DNA from: Selaginella tamariscina
Taxonomy: Eukaryota; Streptophyta; Lycopodiopsida; Selaginellales; Selaginellaceae
Length of the DNA: 64,000 nucleotides
Assembly: GCA_003024785.1 (NCBI GenBank)
Contig: PUQB01000616.1
Span: 81,519-145,518 of the forward strand
Direction of reading: 5' to 3'
Shown: positions 6,401 through 64,000 of the stretch, in pieces
Layout of the letters: each line of letters begins with the position of its first letter
How positions within the stretch are numbered: the first letter of the stretch is position 1
Program-made: the position numbers and the translations under genes
The notes under the pieces: generated by a model
What the model was told of the DNA's origin: nothing
The model's input: only the letters and a program-made list of their open reading frames with translations
The model's database searches: none

Positions 6401-6408
6401 ATCTTTAT

Positions 6409-7480: not shown

Positions 7481-7499
7481 GACCCACGCAATCCTGACA

Positions 7500-14266: not shown

Positions 14267-14447
14267 TGACTTTGGAGGTATGCATACGTAAAATATTCTA
14301 CTACAAGGAATCTACGCATCCCACGTGGCTCGTCATGCAGATGGTCAATGCTCTCAAGGTTGGAAGATTGGTGCGTCTTAATTGTAGCCATATATGGACT
14401 CTGAAATATAAGGGAATTTAATTACTAGGTATAATCTCCATTTGGTC
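14267..14447. promoter_or_regulatory. Shared intergenic region between divergent PPR and FkbM genes
   Basis: Only 181 bp separate the two start codons, so both promoters and 5' leaders must lie here or overlap. I see no clear TATA box on either side. TACGTA at 14285 and CCACGTGG at 14321-14328 (a palindromic G-box) are the only notable elements. Confidence 0.5.
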
Positions 14448-38281: not shown

Positions 38282-38381
38282 TGAACAGCCTGGAGGTAAC
38301 TAGCACGGGTCCTCGTATCTTTGTTTTGTCTCATACTCTTTTGCTGTTTCTATTCCTATTTTTTGGCTGTTTGTGAGAGAG

Positions 38382-39450: not shown

Positions 39451-39650
39451 TTTCTGTCTTATCCGTAATGTAACTAATACAAATTTTGAAACCAGAAACT
39501 ATCTCCCGTGTCAACTGATTGAAACTCCGATTACACAGAGTTAGTAAGGTGGCTGATGGCTACCTGCGAATGACATTCTAGAGCACAGTAATCCTTAAGA
39601 TTTATTCAGATTGTTTTATTTAAAACAACAAGTATTATACAGTTAGTGTA

Positions 39651-42600
39651 CTAACTTCTACTAGTGATGGCATAGTCCTCAATGAGATGTACTTCCATAC
39701 CTTTCAATAAGCCACTACTAATGTTGTTTGATTCATACGCCCCTTGTGGTGAAATGTCCTCCCATGCTTCTTCAACTGCAAAAGGAGCATTTTCTTCTCC
39801 TGAACTAGGAAATTGTACGAAGCTCTTCTGTGCTGGTGCATCCTTAACCCCTAGACCGTTCGCACCATGTGCTGTATAAGAGCTTCATCTTCTTTGGGAA
39901 CTGCCTCTGTCTCCGAACCCTTGCCCTTCATCTCTGCTCTAGGTGCCTCAGGGGCCTCCTTAGCAGCCTCGGCCTCTTCTACAGCAGGTTGTGCACTTGG
40001 TGCCTCTTCCAGCGTTTCTGTAGAGAGCTGGGCATCTGCTGTGAGAGCTGGTTCCTCTCGCTTTTCCTTGGCCTGCTCCTGATCCTGTTGTGTATCCAGG
40101 GCAGCGGGAGCGGCATCACCTTCTGCATGTGAGATCTCTCTCAATGGACGAAGCTCATTCTCTCGCTCTTCAAAGGTCTCTGTGATGGCCTCAACCTCCT
40201 TAGGCTGTGTGCTTGGTTCATCAAGTGCCACCTCCTTCTGCACACATTCCTCTAGTGCGCACACGGAATCCTTGGGCGCTGCACGCTCCTCTCCTGTGTG
40301 TTGGTCCTCTATCTCTGCAGTGGGTGTAGCAAGCAACTTTATCTCTCCCTCTCTGGGGTCTGGGACTTGTGTGCTTGGTGCCACCTCAAGAACATTTTCC
40401 TGCTCCTGATCTTGTGGTGTCCCAGGGGCACCTCAAGCTCGATAGGAGCGGTATTGGCATGCATGTTCTCCATCTGAGTCACCTCCACCGCAGGTGTCTC
40501 ACCTACAACATCAGCAGAAACCTCTGGAGCCTCCTTGACATCCTGAGGCTCTTGCTCGACAGTGTCCTTCAATGGTTCTTCCTCGGCATGTGGGGCTTCC
40601 ACAGTGACAGAAGGCTCCTCCTGTTTCTTGTTCTGGGTGATGAAGATTTCCACCTCTTTTTGCACACGTTGCTCTGGTGTCTCCACGGATGCTGCCTGCG
40701 CATCCAAAGCACGCTCATCCGCATGAGCGCCCTCCGTCTCCTCAGCCTCTACCGTAGGTGCCTCTGGCACAGCTGGCAGCTCTTCAAGGGTTGAAGCTTC
40801 CTCATGAGTGCCCTCAGCCTCTTCCACAACAGGTTGTGCGCTTGGTGCCTCCTCGAGGGCCTTTTTTGTTGTTTCTGTCGAGTGCTGGGGATCTGTGGTG
40901 AGTGCTGGTTTGTCTTGCTTCTCCTTCTCACTAACGCCATGATGCTGTGGTGTCTGCAGCAACACCTCAGGCAGTGCTTCCTGAGTTGGAGCAGTATCTC
41001 GGTCTGCATGCGTGCTCTGCGTCTTCTCAACCGGGAGTCCAATGTCTCTCAATTCAGAGGCCTCAAGATCCTCCTCCACAGCAAGCTGCACACTGGGGAC
41101 CTCCTCCTTGACAGCGTCCTTCAATGATGCTTCCGCAGCAGGCATCTGTAGTGAGAGAAGGGTCTTCTTGCTTCTCCTTGCTTATCAACGTGGGATCCAC
41201 CTCTGTTTGCACACGTTCCTCTGGTGACTCCTTGGACGCCTCGGGTACTGGCTCCACGTTCAGAGCACGCTCCTCGTCTGCATGTGTGCCCTCCAGCGTA
41301 GGTGCAGCAGGAAGCTCAATCTCTCGCTCTTCGGCCTCAACGTCTTCCAAAACACGTTGTTCACTTGGGGTCCACCGTTGGGCATCTGTGGTGAAAAATG
41401 GTTTGTCTAGCGTCTCCTCAACCAATGTGCGCCTAATGTACTGCTCCTCATCCCGTGGTATCTCCAGAGGGACCTCAGACGCTGCCCCCTCAGCAGGATT
41501 AGCATCCCCGTCTGCATGCGTGCTCTCCATCTCCGTCAACTTCACTGCAGGTGCCTCGGATGCAGCAGGCGGCTTGATCTCTCTCTTTCGTAGGTGTGTG
41601 GTACATTTGGGACTTCTTCCTTAGTACCCTCAGCCTCTTTCACAGCAGGTTGTGCGCTTGGTGCTTCTTCTGTCGTTTCTGTTGAGGGCTGGGCATCTGC
41701 ACTAAGAAATGGTTTTCTTGCTTCTCTACCTCGACAAATGTGCACTCCTGATCTTGTGGTCTTTCAAGGGTCACGTCAGTCACCACCTCCTCTGCAACTG
41801 TGAACTTCTTGCCGTCTCGCTCTCCAGAGGCCTCTGGAGGCTCCTTGACGTCCTCAGGCTGTGCTACGGCAAGATGAATGCTTGGCGCCTCCTCCACAGT
41901 GTCCTCCAATAGTGATTCCACAGTATGTGGGGCGGTGACCAATGTGCTCGCCACCTCCTCTTGCAAATGTTCGTCTACTGTCTCTACTGATGCATCAGCC
42001 ACTGCCTCTGCATGCGGAGCACGCTCCTCATCCCCATGTGTGTCCTCTATCTCCACAGCCTCTGCCATAGGTGCCTCGGGCACAGCAGCCTCTGTTACTT
42101 CTTCTGCCTCCACAGAAGGTTGTGCAATCTCTCGCTCCTCTGGGGTTGCGACGGCCACTTCTGCAGCCGGTTGTGCGCTTGGCGCCTCCTCCAGACTGTC
42201 TTGCTTCACATCTGAGGGGAGAGCTGGTTCGACTTGTCTCTCCTCTTCGACCAGTGTGGGCTTAACGTCCTGCTCATCTGCATGTGTGCTCTCCCTCTCG
42301 ATTACAGGTATCTCTGCCATCTCTTGCGCTCCAGCGGCCTCTGGATCTTCAGCCTCCACAGCAGTTGGTGCCTCCTCCTTGTTAGCGTCCTCCAATGGTG
42401 ATTCCATGGCATGTGGGGCATTTGCGGTGACAAAAGGGTCTTCTTGCTTCTCGTCCTCGGTGGCAAACGTGGGTGCCACCTTTTTTGTACACGTTCCTCC
42501 GGGGTTTCCACGGACACTGCCTGTGCATCCTGATTACACTCCTGGTCTGCATGTGTGCTCTCCGCCTCCACAACCTTCACCTTAGGTGCCTCAGGCACAG

Positions 42601-45600
42601 TGGGCAGTTTGATCTCACGCTCTTCAATAGCATGTGGGACCTCCTTGTTAGGAGCCTTGGCCTCTTCCACAGTTGGTTGTATGCTTGGTGCCTCAAGGGT
42701 GTCTTCCGTCGTCTCCGTGGTGGAATCTTCAGTGAGAGCTGGTTCGCCTTGGTTCTCCTCCTCAACCAATGTCCGTGTAGCATCCTCCTGCTCTTGATTC
42801 TGTCGTGTCTCCAGGGTCACCTCAGGCACTGTCTCCTCAGTAGGAGCAGCATCTCCATCTCCATGCGTGCTCTCTGTTTCCGATGGAGGTGACTCGGGCA
42901 CAACAGGCAGCTCTATTTGGACGTGTGGTTCCTTCTTAGCTGCCTTCTTAGCTGCCTCAGGCTCTTCCACAACAGGTTGTGCATTTGGTGCCTCGGCAAG
43001 AGTGTGTAAAGTGTTTTCTATCGAATGCTGGGCATCTGCGTTGAGAGCTAGTTCCTCAGGCACTTCCGCCCCAGTGGGGGCAGCATCACTGGTCTCAGTC
43101 TCCGTCATGGCCGGGACGTTGATCTCCCACTCTTCAGAGCTCTCTAGAACCGTGGGCGTAGGCTCATTGACACAATCAACATCCACGGTATTTTGTACAC
43201 TTCGTGTCTCCTCAGCGTCCTTCAGTGGTGCTTCCGTGACATGCAAAGCATCTGTGAGAGAAGGCTCCCCTTGCTTTAAAATTTCATCATTGACAACCAG
43301 TGTGGACGCCACCTCTTCTTGCATATTTTTCTCTGGTGTCTCCGTAGATACCTCGGGCACTGCCTCTCTAAACGTACCATGCTCCTCGTCTGCATGTGTG
43401 GCTTCTGTCTCAACAGCCTCCACTATAGGTGCCTCGGGCATAGTGAGCAGGTCCATCTCTCTCTTTCTGGGGCTGTGTGAGACCTCTGAAACTTCTTCTT
43501 GAGCTACCTGAGCCTCTTCCACAGGAGGTTGTGTGCTTGGTGGCTCCTCAAGGATCGTTTCTGTCCACTGCTGAGCATCTGCTGCGAGAGCTGGTTCGAC
43601 TTGCTTCTGCTCCTCAACCAATATGGGCCTAACGTCTTCCTGCTCCTGATCCTGCACTACCTCAGCACGAGCAGCATCTCCCTCTACATGCGTCCACTCA
43701 GTCTCCACAGCCTCCACCACAGGTGCCTCTGGAGAAACGGGTAGGTCTATCTCGTCCTCTTGGTGGACTTCGTCCTTAGTGAACTCAGTCTCTTCCATTG
43801 TAGGTTGTGTACTTGCTGCCTTCGTTTCTCTTGAGAGCAGGGCATTTGTGCTAAGAGCCGGTTCGACTTGCTTCTCCTCCTCGACCAATGTGGGCATAGT
43901 TTCCTCCTGCTCCTGATGTGGTGTCTCCAATGGCACCTCAGACACTGCCTCTTCAGTGCGAGCAGCTTCTCTGTCTGCATGCATACTCTCCATCTCTACC
44001 ACCTTCACGGCAGGTGCCTCAGCCGCAAGCCGAAGGTCAATCTGTAGCTCTTCAAAGGCGGGTTCAGCCTCAGGCTCTTCCAAGACATTTTGCACGCTTG
44101 GTATCCCATCCTCGACAGCATCAAATGGGGCATCTGCGGTAAGAGAAGGCTCCTTTTGCTTTTCGTCCTTGGTGACCAATCGAGACGCCACCTCCTCTTG
44201 TAGAAGTTTCTCTGGTGTCTGTACGAACGCCCTGACCACTGGAGCATGCTCCTCATCCACACTTGTGCACTCCCACTCTGCAGCCTGGTTCATCTGTCGT
44301 TCTTCGGGGCCTTGTGGGACTTCCTCCATAGGTTGTTCGATTGGTGCCTCCTCGAGGGCGCCTTCCATCGTTTCCAATGAGTGCTGGGCATCTGCAGCGA
44401 GAGCTGGTTCGCCTTGCTTCTCCTCCTCAACCAAAGTGGGCTCGACGCCCTCCTCCTGATCTTGTGTGTCTCCACGTGCATCTCAGAAACTGCAGTGGGA
44501 GCAACATCCTCGTGTGCATTCTTGCCCTCGGCCACCACCACAGTAGGGAGCTCGATCTCTTGCTCTTTAGAGGCCTTTGTAAGAGCCTTGATGTACTCAG
44601 CCCCCTCCACAACAGACTGCACACTTGGTGCCTCCTCCTTGACAGCGTCCTTCAATGGTGATTCCGCAATATCTGGAGCATCTGCAGTACCAGAAGGATG
44701 GATGATCAACGTAGGCGGTACCTCCTCTTGCACACATTCCTCTGGTGCCTCTATGAGCGCCTCATGTACTGCCTCTGTATCTGTACCATGTTCCTCGTCC
44801 GCATGTGTGCCCTTCATCTCCACACCCTTAGGTGCCTCAGCCGCAGTTGGCAGCTCAATCTCTGTCTCTGCAAGGGCATGTGCCTCGGGTGAAGCGGGTA
44901 GGTAGGTTTGTGGGATCTCTGGAACTTCCTCCTTAACTGCCTCAACCTCTTCCACAGTAGGTTGTGCGCTTGGTTCTTCTTTAAGGGTGTCTTCCGTCAT
45001 TTCGATCAAGCGCTGGGCATCTATTGTGCGAAATTCTTCTCCTACGTTTTGATCCTGTGGTGTCTCCAGGTGTGCATCAGGAACTGCCTCCTCAGCACAA
45101 GCAGCAACGCCATCTGCATGTGTGCTCTCCGTCTCCATCACGTCCACTACAGGTGCCTTTGCCTCAACCGGGAGATAGATATGTTGCTCTTCAGAAGCCT
45201 CTGGATCCTCGCATTCAGGCACCTTGGCGTCCTCACTCTCATAGGCAGGCTCCTTGATGTCCTCATTCTCAAACTGCGTGCTTACTCCACACTGTGTGCT
45301 TGGTGCCTCGTCCTTCAATGGTGCTTCTAAGGCATGTGGGACATCTGAAGGATCCTGCTTTTTGTCCTCAACGACCAACGTGGGTGCCACCTTTTCTTGC
45401 CCATGTACCTCTATTGTCTCACTGAACTCGGGCAATTGCTCCTCTTCTGCATGTGTGTTTTTATCTCAACAGCCTCCACCACAGGTGCCTTAGCAGGCTG
45501 CTCGATCTCTTGCTCTTTTGGGGGGTGTGGGACCTCTTGGACTTCCTCCTCAGCGGCCTCATCCTCTTCCCCAACAGGTTGTCCGCTTGATGCCTCCTGG

Positions 45601-48600
45601 ATGGTAGGTGCCTCGACTGCAACCGGGAGCTCAATCTCTCGCTCTTTAGAGGCCTCTACAGGTGTAGGCTCCTTGACGTCCACAGACCCCTTGGCATCCG
45701 CAGCCTCATGGTGCGCACTTGGTGCCTCCTCAACAGTGGCCTGTGGGGCATCTGCGGTGAGAGAAAGTTCCTCTTGTTTTTTATTCTCGGTGACCAACGC
45801 GGGCGCCACCTCCTCTTCCACACGTTCCTTTGCTATCTCTGATGATGTCTCAGGCCTTGCCCGTGCATCCGGAGTACGCTCCTCGTCAGCATGTGTGCCC
45901 TCTGCCTCCATAGGTGTTTTGGGTGTAGGAGGCAGCTGGTTCTCTTGATCGTTGGGGGCGTGTGGGAAATCATCCTTAGGGATCTCTGTTTCTTCTTCTT
46001 CTTCGACATTAGGTTGTGCCCTTGGTGCTCGGGTGACTACTGTCATTTCTATCGAGCTATGGACATTTGTAGTGAGAGATGGTTCGTCCTTCATGTCCTC
46101 CTCTTCCACTGCCTCCTTAGTTAGGCCAGCATTCCCATCTGCATGTGTGCTCTCTGTCACCTCCACTGCAGGTGCCTTGGCTGCAATCGGAAGCTCGATC
46201 CCTCGTTCGTCAAGTGCCTCAGGAACCTGCCCTGGAACCTTTATGGAAGGCTCCTTGACGTTCTCAGACTCCTCCACAGCATTCTGTGCCTCGTCCTCGA
46301 CATCATCCACTTCCGTTGCTTGCGAGGCATCTGCGGTGAGAGAAGGCTCCTCTTGATTTTCATCTTCGGCGACCAATGTGGGTGCCACATCCTCTTGTAC
46401 ACATTGCTCTGGTGTCTCGACTGATGCCTCGGGCACTACCTCCATATCCGTAGCTCGCTCCTCGTCTGCATGTGTGTCGTCTATCTCAGCACCCTCCACT
46501 GCGGGTGCCTCCAGCACAATGATCTCTTGCTTTTCGGAGGGTTCAGAAGGGTGTGGTACTACTGGGACTTCCTCCTCAGATCCCTTGGCCTCTTCCACAG
46601 CAGGTTGTGTGTTTGGTTCTTCGACCGCTATTGTTGAGGACTGGGCATCTGCAATGAGAGCTGGTTCAACTTGCTTCTCCTCCTCTACTAATGTAGGCCT
46701 AACGCTCTCCTGTTCCTGATTTTGTGAGCTCTTGAAAGGAACCTTAGACACCCCCTCCTCAACAGAAGAAGCATCCCAGTCTGCATGTGTGCTCTTCGTC
46801 TGCATCACCTCCACTGCAGGTGCCTCAGCCTCAACTAGGACCTCAAGCTCTCGGTTTTTAGAGGCCTCTGGAAGCTTTGGGGCATGCTCCTCGATGTCCA
46901 AGGCGTCCTCCACATCATTTTGTGCGTCTGGTGCCTCCTCCAATAATTGTTCTGGGGCATCTGCGGTGAGAAAGGAGGTGGTTGATGACGACAAGAAGCA
47001 AGGAGAGCCCTCTTGCATACGTTTCTCTGGTGTCTTCACGGACACCTTAGACACTGTTTCCACATCCGGAGCCCACTCTTCATCGGCATGTGTGCAGTCA
47101 ATTTGCGCAGTAGGTGTCTTGGCTTCCTCCTTAGTGGCCTCGGCCTCTTCCACCACCTCAAGGGTTTCTATCGAGCGTTTGTCATCCTTCTCCTCCTCGA
47201 CCAATGTAGGCTTAACATCCTCCTGCTCATGTGGTCTCTTGACGGGAACTTTAGACACTTCCTCCTGAGCAGAAGCAGCAACCCCGATCTCCGTCTCTGT
47301 CACCGCCTCAGCTACAATAGGAAGCTCGATCTCTCGCCCTTCAGAGGCCTCCGGAACCTTCAGGGCAGGCTCCTCAGTCTCCTCCACAACAGGCTGCAGG
47401 CTTGGTGCTGCCTCCTCTACAGCCTCCTTCAATGGTTGTTCCGAGGCATCTGTGGTGAGCGAAGGCTTTTTCGTCCTCAGCAATCAAGGTGGGCGCCACC
47501 TTCTCTTGCGCACGTTCCTCTGGTGTCTCAATGCCATTGGAGGTCTCAGGCACTCCCTCTGCATATGGAGCATGCTTCTCTGCATGTGTGCCCTCTGTCT
47601 CAGCACCCTCCATCTCTGGAGTAGTGGTGATTTCTTGCTCTTCGGTGGCATGTGAGACCTCTGGGAATTCGTTCTCAGCGGCCTCATCCTGTTCCGCAGC
47701 AGGTTGTGAGCTCGGTGCCTCCTCCTCTGCCAATGTGGGCCCATCCAGAGGTACCACAGGCACTACCTCCTCATCTGCATGCGTGTTCTCCATCTCCGTC
47801 ACCTGCTCCGCAGATTTCTCGGCTGCAACTGGGAGCTCGTTCTCTCGCTCTGAAACTTCAGGGGCAGGTTCTTTGTTGTCCCCAGCCTCCTCCACAGCAT
47901 GCTGCGCACTTGGTGACTCCTCCTCAACAACATCCTTGAATGGTGCTTCCGCATCTGTGGTGAGAGAAGGCTCGTGCTTTGAGTTCTCGGTGACCAACGC
48001 GGGCGCCACCTCCTCTTCCATACGTTCCTCTGCTGTCTCTGTTGATGTAGCTGGCACTACCCGTGCAACCGGAACACACTCTTCGTCAGCATGTGTGGCA
48101 TCGACCATATGCTGGATCTGTTGCTCTTTGTGGGCGTGTGGGACCTCTGGGACATCCTCCTTAGCAGATTCTGCTTCTTCTTCTGCCTCTTCCGCATCAG
48201 GTTGTGCACTTGGTGCCTCCTGGGGGGTGATTGTTGTCGTTTCTATGGTGAGAGATGGTTCGCCCTCACCTTGCTCGACCAATGTGGGTCCAACGTCCTC
48301 CTCCTGATCCTCTGATGTCTGAAGCGTCACCTCGGTGGGGGCAGCCTCTGCATGTGTTCTCACAGCCTCCATCACCTCAGGTGCCTTGCCCCACGGTAGG
48401 CTCGTTGATGACCTCAGACTCATCCGCAGTAGGTGTGCTTAGTGCCTCCTCCTCTACAGCGTCCTTCAATGGTTTTTGTTGCTTGACAGACATCTGAGGT
48501 GAGAGAAGGCTCCTCTTGCTTCTCATCCTTAACGACCAATATGGGCGCCACCTCCTCTTGCACACGTTCCTCTGAGGTGTCCACAAACGCCTCGGGCACT

Positions 48601-51600
48601 ACTCCATATCAGTAGCTTGCTCCTCCTCCACATGTGTGCCCTCTATCCCAGCAACCTCCACCGCGGGTGCCTCTGGAGCAACAGGCAGGTTGACCTCTCG
48701 CTCTTCGGAGGGGTGTGAAACCTCTGGGACTTCCTCCTCAGTGGCCTCATCCTCTTCCCCAGTAGGTTGTGGCCTTGGTGCCTCCTGGAGAGTGTCTTCC
48801 ATCACTTCTGCAGTGGATGGGACATCTGCAGTGAGAGCTGGTTTGACTTGCTTCTTCTCCTCAAGCAATGTCGGGCTAACGTCTCCTGATCCTGTGGTGT
48901 CTCCAGGTGCACCACGGGCGCTGCCTCCTCAGCAGCAACAGCATCCCCGTTTACATCCGTGCTCTCCATTTCAGTCACCTCCACCTCGGCTGCAACTGGG
49001 AGCTCAATCTCTCGCTCTTCGGAGGTCTCTAAAACCATAGGTGTAGCCTCCTCAGACTCCTCTACAGAAGTCTCGGCATTTGGTGCCTCCTCCCCATTTG
49101 CGATGAGATCCTGCTTTTTGTTCTTGATTTTTTTTTGATGACCAACGTGGGTGCCACCTCCTCTTCCACACGTTCCTCTGCTGTCTCTGATGATGTGTCA
49201 GGCACTGCCCGTGCGTCCGGAACAGAGTCTTCATCAGCATGCGTGCCTTCTGTCTCCAGTGCCTCCATAGGTGTTTTGGGTGTAGCAGGCAGCAGGGTCG
49301 CTTGATCTATGTGAGCGTGTGGGACCCCTGGGACATCCTCCTGAGCAGCGTCTGTTTCTTCTTCTGCCTTCTCCAAAGTAGGTTGTGTGCTTGGTGCCTC
49401 CTTGAGGGTCGTTTCTGTCGAGCTTTGGGCATGTGGGGTGAGAGATGGTTCATCCTCCACGTCCTCCTGTTCCTGAAGCGTCACTGCAGGCACTGTCTCC
49501 TCAGTGGGGGCATCATTTCCGTCTGCATGTGTGCTCTCTGTCTTCATCATCTCCACCGCAGGTGCCTTGGTTGCAACCGGAAGCTCGATCCCTTGTTCTT
49601 CAGGGGCCTCTGGAACGCCTTCAGGCTCCTCCACGGCATTCTTTGCCTCCTCTGCAGCTTCCACTTTTGTTGCTTGCAAGCCATCTGCGGTGAAAATGGC
49701 TCCTCCTGATCTTCATCTTCAGCGACCAACGTGGATGCCACATCCTCTTGCACATATTTCTGTGATGTCTCCACCGATGCCTCGGGCACTACCTCTGTAT
49801 CCGTAGCTCGCTCCTCGTCTGCATGTGTGCCATCTGCCTCGGCAACCTCCACTGCAGGTGCCTCGAGAGCAATGGGTAGGACAATCTCTCGCTTTTCAGA
49901 GCTTTCAGAGACCTCTGGGACTTCGTCTTCAGCTTCCTTGGCCTCTTCCACATCAAATTGTTCGCTTGGTGCCTCTTCCATCGTTACTGTTGAGGACTGG
50001 GCATCTGCAGTGAGAGCTGGTTCGACTTGCTTCTCCTCCTCTACTGATGTCCGCCTAACGTTTTCCTGTTCCTGATCCTGAGGTCTTTCGAGAGGCACCT
50101 CAGGCACTCCCTCCTCAGCATAAGCGGCTTCCCTGCCTGCATGTGTGCTCTCTGTCTCCATCACCTCCACTACAGTTGCCTCGGCCTCAACTGGGAACTC
50201 AATATCTTGGTTCTCAGAGGCCAATTGAACCTTCAGGGCAGGCTCCTCAGCCTCCTCCACAGCAGAATGCATGCGTGGTGCTGCTTCCCGCACAGAGTCA
50301 TTCAATGGTTTTGAGGCCTCTGTGGTCAAAGAAGGCTCCATCTCTTGCTTTTCATCGTCAGCAACTGCGGTCAGAGAAGGCTCCGTCTCTTGTTTTCATC
50401 GTTAGTAACCAATATGGGTGCCACCTTCTCCTCTTGCCCACGTTCCTCTGGTGTCCCAATGGAGGTCTCAGGTAGTCCAGATGCATCTGGAGCGTGTTCC
50501 TCCTCTGTCTCTGCACCCTCCATCTCGAACGCAGGGGGCAGCTCGATTTCTTGCTCTTCAGTGGCATGTGGGACCTCTAGGAATTCCTCCTCAGCAGCCT
50601 CATCCTCTTCCCCAGAAGGTTGTGCATTTCGTGCCTCCTCAAGGGTGTCTTTTGTCATTTCTTTGGACAACTGGGCATTTGCAGTGATATCTGATTCGAC
50701 TTGCTTCTCCTTCTCTACCAATGTGGCCTAACGTCCTCAGGATTCACTGCCTCCTTAGCAGAAGTAGCATTTCCATCTGGATGTGTGCTCTCCATCTCTG
50801 GGGGCTCATTCTCTCGTTCTGAAACCTCAGGGGCATGCTCCTTGGCGTCCCCATCCTCCTCCACAGCATGCTGCGCACTTGGTGCCTCCTCCTCAACAAC
50901 ATCCTTCGATGGTGCTTCCGGGGCATTTGCAGTGAGAGAAGGCTCCTCCTGCTTTTCGTTCTCGGTGACCAACTTGGGCACCACCTCCTCTTCCACACGT
51001 TCCTCTACTGTCTCTGTTGATTTGTCATGCGCTGCCCGTGCATCCTCCTTGTCAGCATCTGTGCCCTCTGTCACCGTAGGTGTTTTGGGTGTAGCAGTCA
51101 GCTGGGTCTCTTGATCTATGTGAGTGTGTGGGACCTCTGGAACATCCTCCTTAAGAGTCTCTGTTTCTTCTTCTGCATCTTGCAAAGTAGGTTGTGTTCT
51201 TGTTTCGTCCCCAAGGGTGACTTCTGTTGTTTCTGTCAAACTCCGGGCATGTGTAGTGAGAGATGGTTTGTTCTCCGTGTCCTCCTGTTCCTGAAGCGTC
51301 ACCGCAGGCACTGCCCCCTCAGTGGGGGCAGCATTCCCGTCTGCATGTGTGCTCTCTGTCTTCGTCACCTCCACCGCAGGTGCCTTGGCTGTAACCGGAA
51401 GCTCAATACCTTGCTCTTCAGGGGCTCCTGGAACCATCAGGGCATGCTCCTTAGACTGCTCCACAGCATTCTGTGCCTCCTCGACAGCGTCCGCGTCCAC
51501 TTCCATTGCTTGCGAGGCATTTGTGTTGAGAGAAGGTTCCTCTTGATTTTCATCTTCAGCCACCAACTTGGGTGCCACATCCTCTTGCACACATTTCTCT

Positions 51601-54600
51601 AATGTGTCCACTGATGCCTCGGGCACTACTTCCATATCCGTAGCTCGCTCCTCGTCTGCATGACCCTCCACTGCATGTGCCTCGAGTGCAATGGGTTGGA
51701 TGATCTCTCGCTTTTTGGAGGTTTCAAAGGGATGTGATACATTTGGGACTTCCTCTTCAGCTCCCTTGGCGTCTTCCACAGCAGATGGTTCGCTTGGTGC
51801 CTCCATCGTCACTGTTGAGGACTGGGCATCTGCAGTGAGAGCTGGTTCGACTTGCTTCTCCTCCTCTACTAATGTGAGACTAACATTCTCCTGTTCTTGA
51901 TCCTGAGATCTTTTGAGAGCACCTCAGACACTCCCTCCTCAACAGAAGCGGCTTCCCTGCCTGCATGTGTGCTCTCTGTCTCCATCACCTCCATGGCTTC
52001 CACTGGGAACTCAATATCTCGGTTTTCAGAGGCCAATGGAACCTTCAGGGCAGGCTCCTCAGCCTCCTCCAAAACATGCTGCATGCTTGGTGCTGCTTCC
52101 ATCACAGCGTCCTTCAATGGTTGTTCTGAGGCATCTGCGGTCAGAGAAGGCTCCATCTCTTGCTGTTCGTTCTCAGCAACCAACGTGGTTGCCACCTTCT
52201 CCTCTTGCCCATGTTCCTCTGGTGTCTCAATGGAGGTCTCAGGCAGTCCCTTTGCATCTGGAGCATGCTCCTCCGCATATGTGCCCTCCAACTCAACACC
52301 CTCCATCTCGAGCGCAGTGGGCAGCTCGATTTCTCTCTCTTCGGTGGCATGTGGGACCTCTGGGAATTGCTCGTCAGCAGCCTCATCCTCTTGTTGAGCG
52401 CTCGGTGCCTCCTCGAAAGCGTCTTTTGTCATTTCTGTGGAGAACTGGGCATCCGCAGTGAGAGCTGGTTCGACTTTCTTCCCCTGCTCTACCAATGTGG
52501 GCCTAACTTCTTCACGATCTACTGCCTCCTCAGCAGGAGCAGCATTGCCATCTGCATGCGTGCTCTCTATCTTTGTCACCTGGTTGGGAGGTTCCTCGGC
52601 TGCAACTGGGGGCTCATTCTCTCGCGCTGAAACCTCATTGGCAGGCTCCTTGGTGTCCCCAGCCTCCTCTATAGCATGTTGCACAGTTGATGCCTCCTCC
52701 TCAACAACATCCTTCAATGGTGCTTCCGCTACATGTGGGGCATCTGCGGTGACAGAAGGCTCCTCCTGCTTTTCGTTCTCGGTGACCAACGCGGGCACCA
52801 CCTCCTCTTCCACACGTTCCTCTGCTATCTCTGCTGATGTGTCAGGCACTGCCCGTGCATCCGGAACACACTTCTCTTCAGCATGTGTGCCCTCTGACTC
52901 CAGAGCCTTGGTGAGAGATGGTTTGCCCTCCTCTTGCTCGAGTAATGTGGGCGCAACGTTTTCCTGTTCATGATCCTGTGATGTCTGAAGCTTCACCTCA
53001 GCAAGGGCAGCATTCTCCTCTGCATGTGTTCTCTCAGCCTCCACCATCTCCATCACCGCAGGTGTCTTGCCCACAGCCAATTTGGGGTAGGCTCCTTAAT
53101 GTTCTCATACTCCTCCGCAGTACGCGTGCTTGGTGCATTCTTGTCCTCAGAGACCAACGTTTGCACCAACTTCTCTTGCACACATTCTTCTGGTGTCTCT
53201 GTAGACACCTTGATAACTGGCTCCATATATGGACCATGGTCGTCGCCATCTTGTGTGCTCTTCATCTCCACAGCCTCCATTGTAGGTGCCTCGAGCACAG
53301 CGGGTGCAGTGCCATGTGGGACCTCTGGGAATTCCTCGGCCTCTTCCACAACAGGTTGTGCACTTGGGGTGTCTTCCATCGTTTCTGTCAAGGGCTGGGG
53401 ATCTGCAGTGTAAGCTAGTTCCACTTGCCTAGCTTCCTCATGATCTTGGTCCTGCGACTTAGCAGCATCAGCATCTTCATGCGCGCTTTCCGCCTCTGTA
53501 ACCTCAACCGTAAGTGCCTCGATTGCAGGCAGCTCGATCTCTTTCTCATTATATGGTATTGGTCCCTTCGGGCTCCGTCCTTGGGCTCTTCCCCACCAGT
53601 TTGTGTGGTTGGTGCCTCTAAAATGTTTTCTCTCCTTTCCCTCGAAATATGGGCATCTGGAGCGAGAGATGGTTCGTTTTCTTCCTCCTCGATCAATGTG
53701 GGCCTAACGTCCTCGTGCTCCTGATCCTGTGGTCTCTTGACTGGCACCTCAAACACTGCCTCCACAGCGGAAGAACCATCCCATCTGCATGCATTCTCTC
53801 TGTCTCCGTCGCCTCTACTTCTGATGCTTTAGCCACAACTGGAAGCTCAATCTCTTCAGACGCCTCTGGAAACTTGGGGGTAGGCTTCTTGATGTCCACA
53901 GCCTCCTCAGGGCATTTTGCACACGTGGTGCCTCCTTCTGGATAACGTCCTTCAATGGTTCATCTACGGTGACAGAAGGCTCCTCTTGCTTCACGTCCTT
54001 GTCAACCAGCTTGGATGCGACTTCTTCTTTCACATGTTCGTCTGGTATCTTAACAGACATTGTCTCCGCATCTAGAGCCTGCTCTTCACTGGCATGTGTC
54101 TCCTCCATCTCCACAGCAGCAAGCAGCTCGACATGTGGCTCTTCAGGCGCGTCTGGGATCTCCAAAACTTCATACTTAGTGGCCCCAGCCTCTTCCGTAG
54201 CTGGTTTAGCACTTGATGCCTCCTCAATGGCGTCATCCGTCGTTTCTATTGAGTGTTGGGCATCTGCTGTGAGAGATGATTCGTCTTCCATCTCCTCTTC
54301 GACCAATGTAGGTCTCATGTCCTCCTGCTCTTGATCCTTTTCTGTCTCTAGTGGCGTCTTATGTATTGCCTCAGTGGGAGCCATATCCCTGTCTGCATGA
54401 CTACTCTCCGTCTTTGTCACCTCTCCTGCAGTTGACTCGCATCCAACTGGGAGGTCGAGGTCTCGCTCTTCATAGGCCTCGGGAACCTTTGGGGCAGGCT
54501 CCTTAGTCTCCTCAATAGCAGGCTGCGCCCTTTGTGCCTCCTTGACAGTGTCTTCAGTGCTTTCTATTGAGCCCTGGGCATTTGCGGTGAGAGATGGTCT

Positions 54601-57600
54601 GTCTTGCTTCTCCTCCTCAACTAATGTAGACCTAGCGTCCTCCTTCTGATCCTGTGGTGCCTTCATCGACACCTCAGGCACCTGCTCCTCAGTGGAGGCA
54701 GAATCCTGGTCTGCATATGTGCTCTCAGTCTCCGTCACCTCCATTGCAGATGCTTTGGAGGCAACAGGGAGGTTGAGCTCTGAACTAGGATCATTGATTT
54801 CCTCAGCCTTCGCCATGGCATTCTGCATGCTTGGTACCTCCTCAGCTTCCTTCAATAGATGTTCCGAGGAATCTGCTGTGTCCTCTTGCTTTTTATCCTC
54901 GGCATCCAACGTGGGTGCCACCTCCTCTTGCACAAGTTTCTCTGTTGTCTCAATGGAGGCCTCAGGCACTCCCTCTGCATCCGAAGCAAGCTCCTCATAT
55001 GCATGTGTGCCCTCTGTCTCAGCACCCTCCATGGTAGGTGCAGTAGGCAACTCGAACTCTTCGGTGGCATGTGGGACCTCCGTGACTTCCTCTTCAACGG
55101 TCTCATCCTCTTCCCCAACAGGTTGTGCGCTTGCTGCCTCCTGGAGAGTGTCTTCCATCACTTCTGCCTTGCATAGGGCGACAGCTGGTTTGACTTGCTG
55201 CTTCTTCTCCTCGACCAATGTGGGGCTAACGTCTTCTTGATCCTGTGGTGTCTCCATGGGCACCACAAGTGCTGCCTCCTCAGTAGCAACAACATCCCCG
55301 TCTACATTTGTGCTCTCCATCTTAGTCACGTCCACGATAGGTGCCTCGGCTGCAACCGGGAGCTCAATCTCTCGCTCTTCAGAGGCCTCTAAAACCATAG
55401 GTGTAGCCTCCTTAAATTCCACAAACATCTTAGCATCCTCAGACACATCTACAGCATGTCTAGCATCTAAGGTGAAATAAGGATCCTCCTGCTTGTCGTT
55501 CTCGATGGCCACCTCCTCTTCCACACCTTCCTCTGCTGTCTCTGATGATGTGTCAGGCACTGCCCGTGCGTCCGAAACAGACTCTTCGTCATCATGTGTG
55601 CCTTTGGTGTCCTGTGCCTCCACCATAGGTGTTTTGGGTGTAGCAGGCAGCTGGGTCTCTTGATCTATGTGAGCGTGTGGGACCTCTGGGACATCGTCTG
55701 TTTCTTCTTCTGCCTTCTCCAAAGTAGGTTGTGTGTTTGGTAACTCCTTGAGGGTGACTGATGTCGTTTCTGTCGAGCTCCGGGCATGTGTGGTGAGAGA
55801 TGGTTCGTCCTCCACGTCATCCTGTTCCTGAAGCGTCACTGCAGGCACTGCCTCCTCAGTGGGGGCATCATTCCCGTCTGCATGCGAGCTCTCTGTCTTC
55901 ATCACCTCCACCGCAGGTGCCTTGGTTGCAATCGGAAGCTCGATCCCTTGTTCTTCAGGGGTCTCTGGAACCTTCAGGGCAGGCTCCTTGACGCCTTCAG
56001 ACTCCTCCACGGCATTCTTTGCCTCCTCCTCTGCAGCTTCCACTTTTGTTGCTTGCAAGCCATCTGCGGTGTAAAATGGCTCCCGATTTTCATCTTCAGC
56101 AAGCAACGTGGATGCCACATCCTCTTGCAAACATTTCTCTGATGCCTCCACTGATGCCTCGGGCACTACCTCTGTATCCGTAGCTCGCTCCTCGTCTGCA
56201 TGTGTGCCATCTACCTCAGCAACCTCCACTGCAGGTGCCTCGAGTGCAATGGGTAGGACAATCTCTCGCTTTTCAGAGCTTTCAGAGACCTCTGGGACTT
56301 CGTCTTCAGCTTCCTTGGCCTCCTCCACATCAAATTGTTCGCTTGGTGCCTCTTCCATCGTCACTGTTGAGGACTGGGCATCTGCAGTGAGAGCTGGTTC
56401 GACTTGCTTCTCCTCCTCTACTAATGTCAGCCTAACGTTCTCCTGTTCCTGATCCTGAGGTCTTTTGAGAGGCACCTCAGGCAATCCCTCCTCATCATAA
56501 GTGGCTTCCCTTCCTGCATGTGTGCTCTCTGTCTCCATCACCTCCACTACAGTTGCCTCGGCCTCAACTGGGAACTCAATATCTTGGTTCTCAGAGGCCA
56601 CTGGAACCTGCAGAGCCTCCTCCACAGCAGGCTGCATGCTTGGTGCTGCTTCCACCACAGCGTCCTTTAATGGTTGTTCTGAGGCATCTGCGGTCAGTGA
56701 AGGCTTTGTCTCTTGCTTTTCGTCCTCAGCAACCAACGTGGGTGCCACCTTCTCCTCTTGCCCACGTTCCTCTGGTGTCTCAATGGAGGTCTCAGGCAGT
56801 CCCTTTGCATCTGGAGCATGCTCCTCCGCACATTGAGAGGTCTCAGGCAGTCCCTTTGCATCTGGAGCATGCTCCTCCGCATATGTGCCCTCCAACTCAA
56901 CACCCTCCATCTCGAGCGCAGTGTGCAGCTCGATTTCTCTCTCTTCGGTGGCATGTGGGACCTCTGGGAATTGCTCGTCAGCAGCCTCATCCTCTTCCCC
57001 AGCAGGTTGAGCGCTCGGTGCCTCCTCGAAAGCGTCTTTTGTCATTTCTGTGAAGAACTGGGCATCTGCAGTGAGAGCCGGTTCGACTTTCTTCTCCTGC
57101 TCTACCAATGTGGGCCTAACTTCTTCACGATCTACTGCCTCCTCAGCAGGAGCAGCATTGCCATCTGCATGCGTGCTCTCTATCTTTGTCACTTGGTTGT
57201 CAGGTTCCTCGGCTGCAACTGGGGGCTCATTCTCTCGCGCTGAAACCTCAATGGCAGGCTTCTTGGTGTCTCCAGCTTCCTCTATAGCATGTTGCACAGT
57301 TGGTGCCTCCTCAACAACATCCTTCAATGGTGCTTCCGCTACATGTGGGGCATCTGCGGTAAGAGAAGGCTCCTCCTGCTTTTCGTTCTCGGTGACCAAC
57401 GCGGGCACCACCTCCTCTTCCACACGTTCCTCTACTATCTCTGCTGATGTCTCAGGCACTGCCGGAACACACTCCTCTTCAGCATGTGTACCCTCTGTCT
57501 CCAGAACCTCCACCATATGTGTTTTGGGTGTAGCAGGCAGCTGGATCTCTTCGCGTGGGACCTCTGGGACATCCTCTTCTGCTTCTTCTTCTGCCTCTTC

Positions 57601-60600
57601 CACAGTAGGTCGTGCACTTGGCGCCTCCTCAAGGGTGACCTCCTTTTGCTCGACCGATCTGGGCCTAAGCTCCTGATCCTGAAGCGCCACCTCAGTCGGG
57701 GTAACATTCTCGTGTGCATGTGTGCTCTCAGCCTCCGCAACCACAGGCTCCTTAATGTCCTCCTCATTAGGCATGCTTGGTGCCTTCTCCTCTACAGCAT
57801 CCTTCAATGATGCTTCCATGTCATGTGTGGCATGTGCAGCGAGAGAGGGCTCCTCTTGGTTCTTGTCCTCAGAGACCAACATCGGCACCACCTTCTGTTG
57901 CACACATTCTTCTGCTGTCTCTGCAGACGCCTTGAGTACTGGCTCCACGTCTGAACCATGTTCGTCGTCAGCTTGTGTGCCCTTCGTATCCACAGCCTCC
58001 ACTGTAGGTGTCTCGGGCACAGCGGGCGCAGCACCATGTGGGACCTCTTGGACTTCCTCCGCAACTTCCTTAGCAGGTTGTGCAGTTGGTAACTGCTCAA
58101 GGGCGTCTTCCATCGTTTCCGTTGAGTTCTGGCCATCTGCTTTGTGACATGGTTCAATTTGCTCAACCAATGCGGGCATAGCTTTTCCTGCTCTTGATCC
58201 ACTTGCGACATCTCAATAGCATTAGCAGCATCAGAATCTTCATGCGAGCTTTGCGCCTCTGTCACTTTCGCTGTAGGTGCCTCGGTTGCAGTGAGCAGCT
58301 CGATCTCTTTCCTCCGGACTTCATCCTTGGCCTCTTCCCCAACAACTTGTGAGCTTGGTGCCTCTCTTAAAACGTTTTCTCTCATTTCCCTTGTAACTTG
58401 GGCATCTATAATGACATCTCGCTCATGAGAGACCTCTGGAACGTTGGTGTTCTCAGACTCCACGGCATTCTGCGAGCTTGGTGCCTCCTTGACAGCATGC
58501 CTCAATGGTGCTTCTGTTGCTTGCCAGGCATCTGCGGTGAGAGAAGGCTCCTCTTGCTTTTCGTCCTCAACAACCAACGTGGGTGCCTCCTCCTCCGTAT
58601 GTGTCTCCTCCACCGCGGGTGCCTCAAGAACAACGGGCAGGTTGACCTCTAGCTCTTCGGACGGGTGTGAAACCTTTTGGACTTCCTCCTCAGTGGCCTC
58701 ATCCTCTTTCACAGCAGGTTGTGCGCTTGGTACCTCCTTGAGGTTGTCTTCCATCGTTTCTGTCAACAGCTGGGCATCTGTAGTGAGAACTGGTTCAACT
58801 TGCTTCTCCTCCTTGAACAGCTGGGCATTTGTAGCGAGAACCATTTCAACTTGCTTCTCCTCCTTGACCAATGCGGCCCTAACGTCCTCCTCCTGATCCT
58901 GTGGTCTCTTGAGGGGCACCTCAAACAATGCCTCCTCAACAGAAAGACCATCCCCATCTGCATGCATGCTCTCTGTCGCCGTCACCTCTGGGAGCTCCAC
59001 CTCTTCAGACGCCTCTGGAGCCTTGGGGATAGGCTCACGTGGTGCCTCCTTCTGGATAGCGTCTTTCAATGATTCATCTACGGTGACAGAAGGCTCCTCT
59101 TGCTTCACGTCCTTGTCAACCAACTTGGATTTCACATGTTCATCTGGTATCTTAACAGACATTGTCTCCGCATCTAGAGCCTGCTCTTCACCGGCATTTG
59201 TGTCCTCCATCTCCACAGCAGCACGCAACTCGACCTGTGGCTCTTCAGGCGCATCTGGGATCAACATAACTTCATCCACAGTGGTCTCGACCTCTTCCGT
59301 AGTTGGTTTAGCACTTGATGCCTCCACAAGGACGTCATCCGTCGTTTCTATTGCGCTGTGGGAATCTTTCGTAAGAGATGATTCTTCTTGCTTCTCCTCC
59401 TCGACCAATGTAGATCTTATGTCCTCCTGCTCTTGTATCTCCAGTGGCGTCTCATATACTGCCTTAGTGATAGCAATATCCCTGTCTGCATGAGTACTTT
59501 CCGTCTCTTTCACCTCTACTACAGTTACCTCGGCTGCAACCGGGAGCTCGATGTCCCCCTGGGGAACCTTTGAAGCAGACTCCTCAGTCTCCTTGAGAGT
59601 GTCTTCAGTGCTTTCTATCGAGCGCTGGCCATCTGCAGTGAGAGCTAATTTGGGCTCCTGTGGTGTCACCTCAGGCACCGTTTCCTCAATGGGGCCAGCA
59701 TCCCTGTCTGCATATGTGCTCTTATCCACGACAGGCGGAAGGTGAATCTCCCGCTCTTCAGAGGCCACCTCCTCTTGCACACGTCGTTCATCTGGTGTTT
59801 CCGTAGATGCCACGGGCACTGCCACTTTATCCATAGGATGCTCCTCGGCGGCAGCATGTGTACCTTCTGTCTCCGCAGCCTCCACCATAGGAGTAGTGAG
59901 GAGGTCGATCTTTCGCTCTTTGCGGCCATGTGGGACCTCTGGGACTTCCTCCTCAGATGCCTCAGGAGGTTGTGCGCCTGGTGCCTTCTCAAGGGCGTCT
60001 TCTGTCGTCTTTGTCAAGTGCTGGCCATCTGCAGTGAGAGGTGGTTCGACTTGCTTCTCCTCCTCAACCAATCTGGACCTAACGTCCTCCTGCTCTTGCT
60101 CCTGATCCTGTGGTGTCTCCAGGGGCACCTCAGGGACTGCCTTCTCAGCCTCTGCCTCTGGAGTAACATGCAGGTCTATCTCTCGCTCTTGTGGTACCTT
60201 TGGAGTGGCCTCAGCCACTTCCATTGCAGGTTGTATATTCTCTGCCTCCTCAACGGTGTCTTCCATCGTTTCTCTTGAGAGCTGGGCATCTGTGGTGAGA
60301 GCTGGTTGGTCCTCCTCAACCAATATGGGCTCATGCTCCTGATATTGTGGTGTCTCCAGGGGCACCTCAACTTCCCCATCTGTATGCGTGCTCTCCGCCA
60401 CCGCAGGTGCCTCAGCTGCAAGTGGAAGGTTAATCTCTCGGTCTTCAGAGCCACGTGAAACCTCGGTTGCAGGCTCTTTGACGTCTTCATAAATCTGCAT
60501 GCTTGGTGCCTCATCCTCGACAACGTCCTTCAATGGTGGTTCCATGGCATGTGAGGCATCTGCGGTGAGAAAAGACTCCTTTTGCTTTTCGTCCTTGGAG

Positions 60601-63600
60601 GCCAATGTGTGCGCCACCTGCTCTTGCACACGTTCCTCTGGTGCCCCAACGGAAACCTTGAGCACTCCCTCTCCATCCGGAGCACGCTCCTCATCTGCAT
60701 GTGTGCCCTCTGTCTCAGTAGCCTCCACCATGGGTCCATGGGGCGCAGTGGGCAGCTCGATCTCTCGCTCTTTTGTGACATGTCGGACCTCTGGGACTTC
60801 CTCCCTAGCGGCCTCATTCTCTTCCACATCAGCTTGTAAGCTTGGTGCCTCCTCGAGGGTGTCTTCCATCATTTCTGAGCATTGGGCATCTCCAATGGCA
60901 GCTGGTTTGACTTGCTCGTCTTGCATGTCCTCCTTAAACAATGTAGGCCTAACTTCTTCTTGATCCTGATCCTTCAGAAGCACCTCAGCTGCTGCCTCCT
61001 CAGTGGGAGCAATATCCGCATCTACATGAGTGCTTTCCATCGCTGCCTCCACTGCAGTTACCTCGGCCCCAACTATCTTTTCAGGGGCCTCTGGAACCTC
61101 CTTGATGTCCTCAGCCTCCTCCACGGCAGGCTGCACGCTTGGTGCATGGTTCAATGGTGCATGTGGGCATCTGCGGTGAGAGAAGGTTCCGCTTCCTTCT
61201 CGTGCTCAGCTGCCACCTCCTCTTGCACGCATTCCTCATTTGTTTCTACAGATATCTTGGGCACTACCGCCGTGTCCAGAGCATGCTCCTGTTCTGCATG
61301 TGTACCCTCCGTCTCCACCATAGGTGCCTCGGATGGCTCGATCTCTTGCTCTCTGGGGGCGCTTTCCTCCTTAGCGACCTTGGCCTCCACAGCAGGTTGT
61401 GTGTTTGGTGCCTCCTCAAGGGCGTCTTCCTTCGTTTCCATTGAGCCCTGGGCATCTGCGGTGGGAGCCGGTCTCTCGTGCTTCTCCTCCTCGACCAATG
61501 TGCACATAACGCCCTGATCATGTGGTGTCTCCAGGAGTAACTCAGGCTCTGCCTCCTCAGCTGGGAGTTCTTTCTCGCACCCTTCCAGAGCAGGTTGTGC
61601 ACTTGGTGTTTCCCTGAGGACATTTGTGTCTGTCGAGAGATGGGCATCTATGGTGAATCCTGATTCATCTTGCGTCTCCTCCCTGGGCCCAACGTGCTCT
61701 TGCTTTACACTCGCAGCTTGTTTTAGGGCACAATGTGTTGTGTCCTCCGGAGAGACCTCCTCAAGCACATTTTCTTTTGTGGTTTCCCTAGGTAGCTTAG
61801 GCACTACTTCCATGTCTAGGGCTCGATTTCCATCTGCCGTCTTTTCCACCTCTACCCCAGGATTTTCAGGAAGCTCTTGAACCTTTTCGGTTCTCATTCG
61901 TGTTGATTTCTCTCGCTCCTCCTCCTTAATTAGCATTGGAACAACAACCTCATACTGCACATGTTCCTGTGGCGTCTCCTCCTCTCCATCTGCATGTGTG
62001 CTCACTACTTCTGCCACAGGTTCCTTGGGTGTAATGGCGAGGTCAAACTCTCGCAGTCCAGATGCCTTTGGATCCTCTGGGACTGCCTGCTTCACATCTT
62101 CCGACTCTGTAGTAGCAAATTGTGAACTTCGTGCTTCCTTGTCCATTGTTTCCTTCCAGACTGAGGCATCTGTAATGGGAGTTGGTTGCTCTTGCTTTTC
62201 CTCAGCAAATATTAGAGCGTCTTGTCCTTTCTGGAGCATTGTTGAAGCGTGATCATCATCTGCAGTTTCGCTTTCCGAAAGCCCTTCAGATGTAACAGGA
62301 AACTGAGCCTCTTTTGCCTCGTGAACCTCCTTGGCTCCCTCAAAATTCTTCACCGCAGGTGCATACACAAGGGTGTCTGTTGTTTGCAGTATGTGTGGTG
62401 AAAAGGTTGGTTCTTCCTTTGCTGCAGCGTCGTTTTGCACTTGCTGTTTTGACGAGACCTTGGACACTGTTTCAGTGACTGAAGTAGCCTTACCTCCACG
62501 TGTTCTCTTTGTCTTTGCAAACGGTGCTTGAGGGGTAGCAACCCGTGGCTCGGTTTCTGGCTCTTCAGTAACCTTCTCCTTGCCTGGGGATTCCTGAACA
62601 TCCTGTAGGTGGGGAGCACCTTTTGGTATCCAAGAAGTCTCCCGTTGCACTTGCTCTCTTTGTGTCCCTTCATTCGCAGGAACCTGGTTTGCATGCCTGC
62701 TCTCCAGAGTATTTTTGCCTTTCAAGTGTCGCACATCTGCTGGTTCTTTCTCCTTCAGTAATGGTTGAGCCTCTTTCTTGAACACAGACGCAGGTGGTTC
62801 CCACACAGCCTTGTCCACGTGTGATGTTATCTGAGTACCTGGCCCTGCAGTCTCCCTCTTCATTGTGCGTGGAGTTCCTTTTGGTACACCTGGTGCTTCC
62901 TCAGCTGTTGAGCGTTTTTTGACTACAGGTGAAGCATTTCGGTCCTCCGCGGCTTGGGTGGAATGTTGCTAGCTTGCTCACTATTTGTCTCCTTGCCAAC
63001 CTTTGACTTTATACTGATGTCCGTCCAAGATGGAGGTTCTGCATCACTTGGTGGCGTTGAGAGTTGATTCTCTTCGCTTGTGTCCGCAATTTCTTTTTTA
63101 ACTCAGTATCTTTTGGCCCTCTGGTTGTAACACTTGCTTCTTTCTCATTGACCTGCAACTAATCAACTTTTCAAACCTGGTTGAACTGCTTTTGTCACTA
63201 TTACCTTTGGTATTTTTGTTACTTCGGTTGTCCCTGTCGGGTCGCTTTGGAGCTTTGCCATCTGTGGTGCTTCAACCTTATGTGGTTTCTTTGATGGGAT
63301 GACTTTGCCAGTGGAACTCAACGATGCTGTTTCAGTCACTGAGGGCTTGCCAGGTGCATCCTCTCTTGAGACGTCCTGAATAATTGAGGTTGACCAGCTG
63401 TCCTTGTCGCTTTCGATGTTGATTCTGGTGTAGAGCTTCTCTCCACCACTACTCCAGCACCTTTCATCTCCTGCTTCGGTAGCCTCCTTGTATTTAGTTC
63501 CGGGTACTTGTTGCATTTGATCAGACTGTACTGCCCTTCCAACCATTTGTTCGGAAGTCTGTGCTTTCGTGGCTTTGCTTGTGGGTTTGGTTTTGGGTGT

Positions 63601-64000
63601 TACTTGGAGCTCCTGCTGTGATCAAACCATTCAGCTCAAAATAACGAGAAGCACAGCTACTTGCCTTCACAGGAGAATCCTTGGTTGATCTCTTTTTGTC
63701 TGATGTCTCCTGATTCTTGGTAACAAGCTCCCAGTCGTCACCGGGCTCCTTAGACTTATCATGTTCGAGCTTCACAGGTACAACTGCGCGTTCGTTTCAC
63801 CACCTTTGGGTGGTGAAGCCACCTTCTCTTGCGTTGGTGGCTTGCCTTTGGGTTTTGCTTTTGCATCATTCGGTTTTGCGGTTCATGAACTGGAACTTGT
63901 TTCATGGGCTTGGTTTGCTGAAGCTGGAGGAGCAGTCTTGTGGCTTGACAATTGGCTTGCTTTTGCATATGAACAGGCAATTACCGAGCTTTTGTGCTTT
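39651..64000 (-). CDS. Giant acidic repeat protein, 5' end outside window
   Basis: The minus strand from the window edge to a TAG at 39651-39653 reads as one low-complexity protein of at least about 7,700 residues. It is rich in Glu, Ala, Pro, Val, Thr and Asp and nearly lacks Cys, Trp and Gly. The longest unbroken frames are 53815-58179 and 57804-61154. Neighbouring frames overlap and continue the same repeats, so the roughly two dozen breaks look like indel errors. N-terminal (right) sequence is non-repetitive: DDWELVTKNQETSDKKRSTK (about 63700-63760), FELNGLITAGAP, ESDKDSWSTSIIQDV, then basic PPKPRRTE- and VFKKEAQPLLKEKE-like parts. Repeats run from about 62.0 to 39.9 kb. The C-terminal tail reads DAPAQKSFVQFPSSGEENAP, then VEEAWEDISPQGAYES and MEVHLIEDYAITSRS. 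No enzymatic domain, membrane segment or signal peptide is visible, and it is probably disordered. I recognise no family. It converges with the Em pair. Confidence 0.7.
49110..50340 (-). repeat. Recent internal duplication, copy 1 (pairs with about 55490-56720)
   Basis: About 1.2 kb here matches the stretch 6.38 kb to the right far better than ordinary units do. Shared features include GTGTTTTGGGTGTAGCAGGC, ATGTGAGCGTGTGGGAC and GGCACTACCTCTGTATCCGT. It encodes the same ATDTEVVPEASVE and VTMEEAPSEQFDVEEAKEAE segments as the partner. Confidence 0.8.
51900..53060 (-). repeat. Recent internal duplication, copy 2 (pairs with about 56450-57560)
   Basis: This block and its partner about 4.5 kb to the right share long near-identical runs, encoding MTKDAFEEAPSAQ, FPEVPHATEEREIEL, EMEGVELEGTYAEEHAPDAK, GLPETS and NQVTKIESTHADGNAAPAEE. 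Together with copy 1 this indicates unequal crossover or replication slippage over multi-unit blocks. Confidence 0.8.
56786..56881 (-). repeat. In-frame 51-bp tandem duplication
   Basis: A 45-bp sequence (GAGGTCTCAGGCAGTCCCTT onward) at 56786-56830 recurs without mismatch at 56837-56881, offset 51 bp (17 codons). The protein therefore repeats AEEHAPDAKGLPETS. The paralogous block at 52.2 kb has one copy. Confidence 0.93.

Follow-up and report, generated by a model that had tools for sequence, protein, structure and literature searches.

Does the minus strand of one 64,000-nucleotide stretch of Selaginella tamariscina DNA (the window; positions 81519–145518 of contig PUQB01000616.1, here C967) encode a single giant protein, and what could such a protein do? 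The original prediction, made from the window itself, was an undescribed giant acidic repeat protein, one continuous repeat family encoded by one very large exon. The locus holds a very large gene, unnamed as far as searches go, and its support is better than a reading of the sequence alone had given it.

A reading frame followed through three contigs

The locus lies on three contigs, C967, C749 and C510, of an assembly of 300,702,823 bases in 1,391 contigs. On stop-to-stop translation, the minus strand of the window carried one composition between 63.8 and 39.65 kb, moving among its three frames. Viterbi decoding of the frame, for which ten long open reading frames (ORFs) served as training set, followed the locus from end to end. 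It passed through C967 from window position 63820 to 39638 with 30 shifts and no stop; two shifts were at introns, one was beside the stop codon and 27 were indel-type, 22 of these decoding as a one-base loss. Stop codons throughout the frame were looked for on all three contigs, and the decoded path over this interval held none in any of them. Further upstream, in the exon 2 sequence within the first ~180 bases of C967 (an error-rich contig end), the decode met a TGA at 63885; C749 was open there. The frame was thus recovered as a stop-free decoded path, whereas the window alone is broken by the 27 indel-type shifts.

Twenty-three of these 27 breaks were absent from another contig version (10 in C749, 13 in C510), and C749 and C510 carried additional breaks of their own at other places. 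When either version was allowed at each site, the merged reading was stop-free up to the true stop, with four unexplained shifts left within the repeats. A majority consensus of the three contigs retained breaks and did not restore the frame, because C967 duplicates C510 or C749 and one version is then counted twice. A stop was flagged inside 7 of 74 genomic matches to the repeat ORF; all seven lay only 0–20 columns from a decoded shift and are matches running past a frame break.

A neighbouring MATE transporter gene served as a control. It was spread over three frames in C967 and C749 and open for 462 codons in C510, where a separate break follows later. The FkbM gene and, by eye, the PPR gene of the window were split between frames as the giant gene is. 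Since the breaks are contig-specific and the MATE gene is broken alike, they are best read, from these comparisons of sequence, as long-read indel errors. By BLAST over ~30 kb, C967 was 99.78% identical to C749 (50 gap openings, 5 mismatches) and 99.75% identical to C510 (49 gap openings, 7 mismatches). In a MAFFT alignment of the three contigs, the gene itself had 74 differing columns, 64 of them indels; the full ~29.9 kb gave 120 indel columns versus 33 substitution columns, a ratio less extreme than that of BLAST. Between C967 and C749, 43 of 78 differing columns over the gene sat in the 2 kb nearest the C967 end. A review table lists a 150-Mb genome estimate and a 300.73-Mb PacBio/Falcon assembly for S. 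tamariscina (PMC8558194), which fits both indel errors and redundant contigs.

When the repeat-unit consensus was substituted at random until it reached the divergence observed (mean 0.29), 130±10 stops arose in 5,969 codons, with a minimum of 107 in 200 runs. As these codons were drawn from stop-free ORFs, it is fairer to compare the decoded paths; these held 0 stops against the ~130 expected without constraint. The ratio of mean nonsynonymous to mean synonymous divergence between units (dN/dS) was 0.55 in the class above 93% identity (3 pairs), and 0.93 (4 pairs), 0.85 (12), 0.62 (84) and 0.55 (168) in successively lower classes; this summary covers 271 of 978 unit pairs, with pairs below 65% identity outside it, and is a weak measure rather than the main argument. 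Judged in this way, constraint seems weak, and would preserve composition and frame more than the identity of each residue.

The predicted protein and its repeats

One repeat family was predicted to occupy more than 22 kb of the minus strand, and it does: an iterated profile hidden Markov model of 104 positions gave 83 matches, some of them partial, which span residues 653–8193 and cover 7,076 of those 7,541. The unit of ~104 residues is acidic and rich in E, A, V, P and T (consensus IELPVAPEAPAVEVVETESTHADEEAAPAEEAVPEVSLETPEEHEQEEVAPTLVEEEKQEEPSLTADAQHSTETMEDAVEEAPSAQPAVEEAEDAKEEVPEVP). Its best-conserved stretches are E-x-E-x-T-H-A-D, P-T-L-V-E, L-T-A-D-A and E-E-A-P-S-x-Q. Unique N- and C-terminal parts flank the repeats, as expected, and introns within the repeats became unnecessary once the indels had been resolved. 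Multi-unit blocks at distant places were 84–89% identical at the protein level (e.g. 88% over 353 query residues); therefore, on sequence similarity, growth of the array via block duplication seems likely.

The merged protein has 8,289 amino acids (aa), 3 of them undefined, a mass of ~900 kDa, a pI of 4.19 and a net charge of −1,447. It consists of 19.6% E, 12.2% A, 9.3% V, 8.7% P and 8.2% T, and contains 116 aromatic residues (W, F and Y) in total. The head (residues 1–446) has a net charge of +21 and the array one of −1,421 over 7,194 residues. Counted per 100 residues, charge falls from +14 over residues 1–35 to between +3 and +5 as far as residue 446, and residues 1000–8193 carry −20. The charge-hydropathy test classed all seven segments examined as disordered. 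AlphaFold2, run on one unit with a 39-sequence unit alignment, returned a mean pLDDT of 61.6 and a pTM of 0.14. This alignment held 39 of the 40 single units listed, one over-long unit being excluded; an alignment of tandem unit pairs mixed unit types and was set aside. DSSP on the AlphaFold2 model of one unit returned nothing. The repeat protein is thus predicted to be disordered, and the giant acidic disordered repeat protein of the original prediction is supported at the level of DNA and of prediction by its frame, its charge, the charge-hydropathy test and AlphaFold2.

The predicted size of at least 7,700 residues was corrected upwards to ~8,290 aa. A survey of plant proteomes gives weights of 806 kDa for a Gossypium "titin", 730 kDa for midasin and 568 kDa for BIG, and its land-plant entries include one gene model of 12,581 aa from Helianthus (pI 11.75) and another of 11,880 aa from Pyrus (pI 5.37) (PMC6681478). 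The giant protein is therefore larger than BIG and midasin, as had been claimed, but sets no size record among predicted land-plant proteins.

No family, structure or paper was found for it, which agrees with the predicted "undescribed" within the reach of length-limited protein searches. Five window pieces of the gene, three of them repeat-bearing ORFs, gave a single sub-threshold Pfam match and none above threshold. Among these pieces there was no LEA domain at E up to 1, and no Ig/FN3 (titin) or intermediate-filament rod domain. The N-terminal 446 residues gave one sub-threshold, unrelated Pfam match (E 0.31), and the DREPP domain was not found in them; NCBIfam gave one sub-threshold match alone for three ORFs. 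A 1,465-residue repeat ORF had no match in the PDB at E up to 0.01. No protein homologue was found for this ORF, or for the 446-residue N-terminus at E up to 10, among the ~7,990 candidates that shared most words with the query at 0.55–1.75 times its length, a range that a homologue of several thousand residues could escape. The same search, given the neighbouring PPR ORF as its query, scored 2,111 protein hits out of 7,990 candidates, Selaginella moellendorffii contributing several; therefore plants are present in the database. Among the papers listed in a literature search for a prior description, none dealt with the giant protein.

Plant models labelled titin, futsch and filaggrin are likewise very large, these labels being annotation names, and the plant "titin" and misin are also in the acidic range, according to the survey (PMC6681478). 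They differ from the giant protein in that its five pieces had no Pfam match above threshold and its one tested ORF none in the PDB.

Gene structure, contigs and neighbouring genes

The start of the giant gene would lie outside the window, on C749, and the sequence is consistent with a nuclear, single-locus gene of four exons (Table 1). Splice sites were predicted and read by eye; conventional sites join the MGKCSS start to the window. The stretch of intron 2 was identical across the three contigs, and this intron accounts for the frame change there. The very large exon of the original prediction stands as exon 4, which holds the repeats, whereas the unique N-terminal part is interrupted by introns and begins beyond the window. 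All 74 repeat-ORF matches and all six N-terminus matches listed in the genome (counts that are lower bounds) lay on the three contigs, in one locus, and further copies of the gene elsewhere were rejected.

Table 1. Features of the giant gene and its neighbours (window positions, unless C749 is named)
Feature	Position	Strand	Description
Exon 1 (MGKCSSKERVGKAVVSKINAAQKAQSSSNDNNNSK)	C749:390531–390635		35 codons; opens ATGGGGAAGTGC…
Intron 1	C749, between exons 1 and 2		67 nt, GT-AG (predicted)
Exon 2	C749:390703–391521; 3′ part at 63665–64000	− (window)	ends …DDWELVTKNQETSDKKRSTKDSPVK
Intron 2	63616–63664	−	49 nt, GC-AG (AAG/GCAAGT ... CACAG) (predicted)
Exon 3 (QELQVTPKTKP…TEVTKIPK)	63205–63615	−	lysine-rich
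Intron 3	63153–63204	−	52 nt, GT-AG (predicted)
Exon 4	39651–63152	−	~23.5 kb; unique lead-in, repeats, unique C-terminus; TAG at 39651–39653
Repeat array	39942–62530	−	converted from residues 653–8193, accurate to a few bases
Unique C-terminal ~96 residues (…AVEEAWEDISPQGAYESNNISSGLLKGMEVHLIEDYAITSRS) and stop	39651–39941	−	
Two AATAAA polyadenylation-like signals	39601–39620	−	31–50 nt past the stop
LEA_5 (Em-type) gene	38304–38855	+	faces the giant gene tail to tail, with ~0.8 kb between the two 3′ ends
MATE transporter gene	36280–37830		MatE matches; frame-broken in C967 and C749
PPR gene and FkbM methyltransferase gene	12045–15468	− (PPR), + (FkbM)	PPR judged by eye

C967 and C510 end at one shared point inside exon 2 (window position 64000 is C510:1), and C749 runs on. 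Over the gene, C967 is a mosaic, equal to C510 exactly over the first ~14.2 kb of the alignment and to C749 exactly from ~13.65 kb to the gene end. The shared end, the mosaic and an assembly of 300.7 Mb for an estimated 150-Mb genome point to redundant, perhaps chimeric contigs.

Upstream of exon 1, C749 carries reading frames that look PPR-like by eye (extract positions 5192–7824). On the plus strand of the window, many short exons between 18000 and 30400 resemble, also by eye, a callose (glucan) synthase gene; the ORF at 20113–20526 in this region had no Pfam match.

A possible membrane-anchored spacer and its alternatives

As an explanation we propose, with a probability of roughly 0.45, a lipid-anchored basic head joined to ~7,500 residues of disordered polyanion, a spacer or brush which would work like PCaP and MARCKS proteins at a giant scale. 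By rules judged by eye, we take the MGKCSSKER start to be suited to N-myristoylation at Gly2 (Ser6, Lys7), with Cys4 a possible acyl site. NCS-1 and hippocalcin are myristoylated MGKxxSK proteins. The putative myristoylated or acylated head would place the protein on a membrane, and the last exon would contribute ~7,500 residues of disordered acidic units with a net charge of about −1,420. Tethered in this way, the chain could act as an entropic spacer or brush that keeps membranes or partners apart, and could bind cations and water; the unique C-terminal tail may carry a partner. By rough estimate, the coil would span ~100 nm or more, with a contour of ~2.8 µm. The spacer or scaffold of the original prediction is thus plausible, and the lipid-anchor-like N-terminus outside the window adds to that picture. 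We infer the splicing, the lipid anchor, the location and the function, and hold the anchored-spacer mechanism tentatively, at somewhat less than even odds.

MARCKS and BASP1 are small animal proteins, myristoylated, E/A-rich, acidic and disordered, with a basic membrane-binding segment, and the giant protein resembles them in architecture only. PCaP1 and PCaP2 (MDP25/MAP18, DREPP family), which are also small, resemble it in their way of working and not by membership, the DREPP domain being absent from the Pfam results for its N-terminal 446 residues. AtPCaP1 is attached to the plasma membrane by N-myristoylation, the VEEKK residues of PCaP1/MDP25 form a site for calcium binding, and a PEVK-rich domain occurs in PCaP2 (PMC6471457).

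Several points weigh against the anchored spacer and the gene beneath it. Four of the 27 shifts, near window positions 61165, 53082, 44469 and 42490, were not resolved by another contig, and each could conceal a stop. The merged reading picks the frame-keeping version at each site, so that the frame is favoured by construction and is no independent proof. At any point there are just two independent consensus versions, because every part of C967 matches either C510 or C749; exon 1 and the greater part of exon 2 were found on a single contig, C749. Two of the identity classes had dN/dS ratios close to 1 (0.93 from 4 pairs and 0.85 from 12), and individual pairs went as high as 1.6–2.2. Lys3 is disfavoured by the simple PROSITE myristoylation pattern, despite the two myristoylated MGKxxSK proteins named above. 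The gene, its transcript and its protein are deduced here from DNA. Huge proteins predicted to be almost wholly disordered can be artefacts, as one survey warns (PMC11573180); the case for this protein stands on its frame rather than on any gene predictor. Were the locus decaying or untranslated and its frameshifts real, this would account for the 27 shifts of the window copy, for the four that stayed and for the breaks kept by the majority consensus. The decoded paths are free of the ~130 stops expected of unconstrained sequence, however, the contigs disagree on the place of 23 of the 27 breaks and the MATE neighbour is broken in the same manner. Real frameshifts were accordingly rejected for these 23 breaks, which another contig contradicts; breaks common to independent copies and accumulated stops, as in a pseudogene, were not found, leaving four of the 27 breaks. 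We regard decay as highly improbable, and the locus as very probably one coding gene.

Granted such a gene, other roles compete with an anchored spacer. The protein could be a soluble cytosolic giant of the RBB1 type (REGULATOR OF BULB BIOGENESIS1, Arabidopsis At5g40450), acting in the organisation of vacuole membranes and the cytoskeleton, with the acidic repeats as a scaffold and MGKCSS left unlipidated. RBB1 is a precedent, being a plant-specific cytosolic protein of 2,890 aa without recognised domains, with putative orthologues of up to 3,715 aa, and most of its ~40 BLASTp hits matched only a 75-residue C-terminal region (PMC4411111). The giant protein is likewise very large, seemingly plant-specific and without recognised domains, a weak likeness and no proof of kinship. 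Compared by description, the two differ in length (2,890 versus ~8,290 aa) and in the lipid-anchor-like start found here; the word "repeats" is absent from the text of the RBB1 paper (PMC4411111), and sequence kinship could not be shown. This role is possible but unlikely. Somewhat less probable again is a hydrophilin role in desiccation, in which the protein, as an abundant and disordered polyanion, would hold water and ions and shield membranes or proteins on drying. LEA proteins are hydrophilic and disordered, the giant protein is extremely hydrophilic and charged, and its host is a resurrection plant with a LEA_5 gene ~0.8 kb downstream. That gene, from which the original prediction drew its desiccation link, is real, but the link is weak: the two genes converge and share no promoter, the five pieces scanned had no LEA match, and a 900-kDa product of a single locus would be an unusual form for a bulk protectant. 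Least probable of all, even below decay, is a tether for ATG8-decorated membranes. ATG8 binds W-x-x-[LIV] motifs; such motifs occur in acidic context near both ends (GDDWELV and EEAWEDI), and 23 [WFY]xx[LIV] sites were listed, including residues 286 and 8253. Short motifs arise by chance, however, and 4 of the 14 tryptophans fitted the motif against about 2 expected, by estimate, from the content of L, I and V. The idea was rejected as no better than chance.

The lipid-anchored spacer is thus the reading we prefer. In its boldest form, which we think improbable, a ~900-kDa lipid-anchored brush, ~100 nm or more thick, would cover a membrane of this resurrection plant, space membranes and hold water and counter-ions during drying. 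If true, plants would have invented, through duplication within one exon, a giant equivalent of the MARCKS/PCaP-type proteins. The locus also illustrates how such genes get missed, indel errors having left ~24 kb of coding sequence in over two dozen fragments. The protein would rank among the largest land-plant proteins with a drawable gene anatomy, in a lineage used for studies of drying survival, and, if the lipid anchor is true, would offer a testable case of a plant building a giant disordered membrane spacer.

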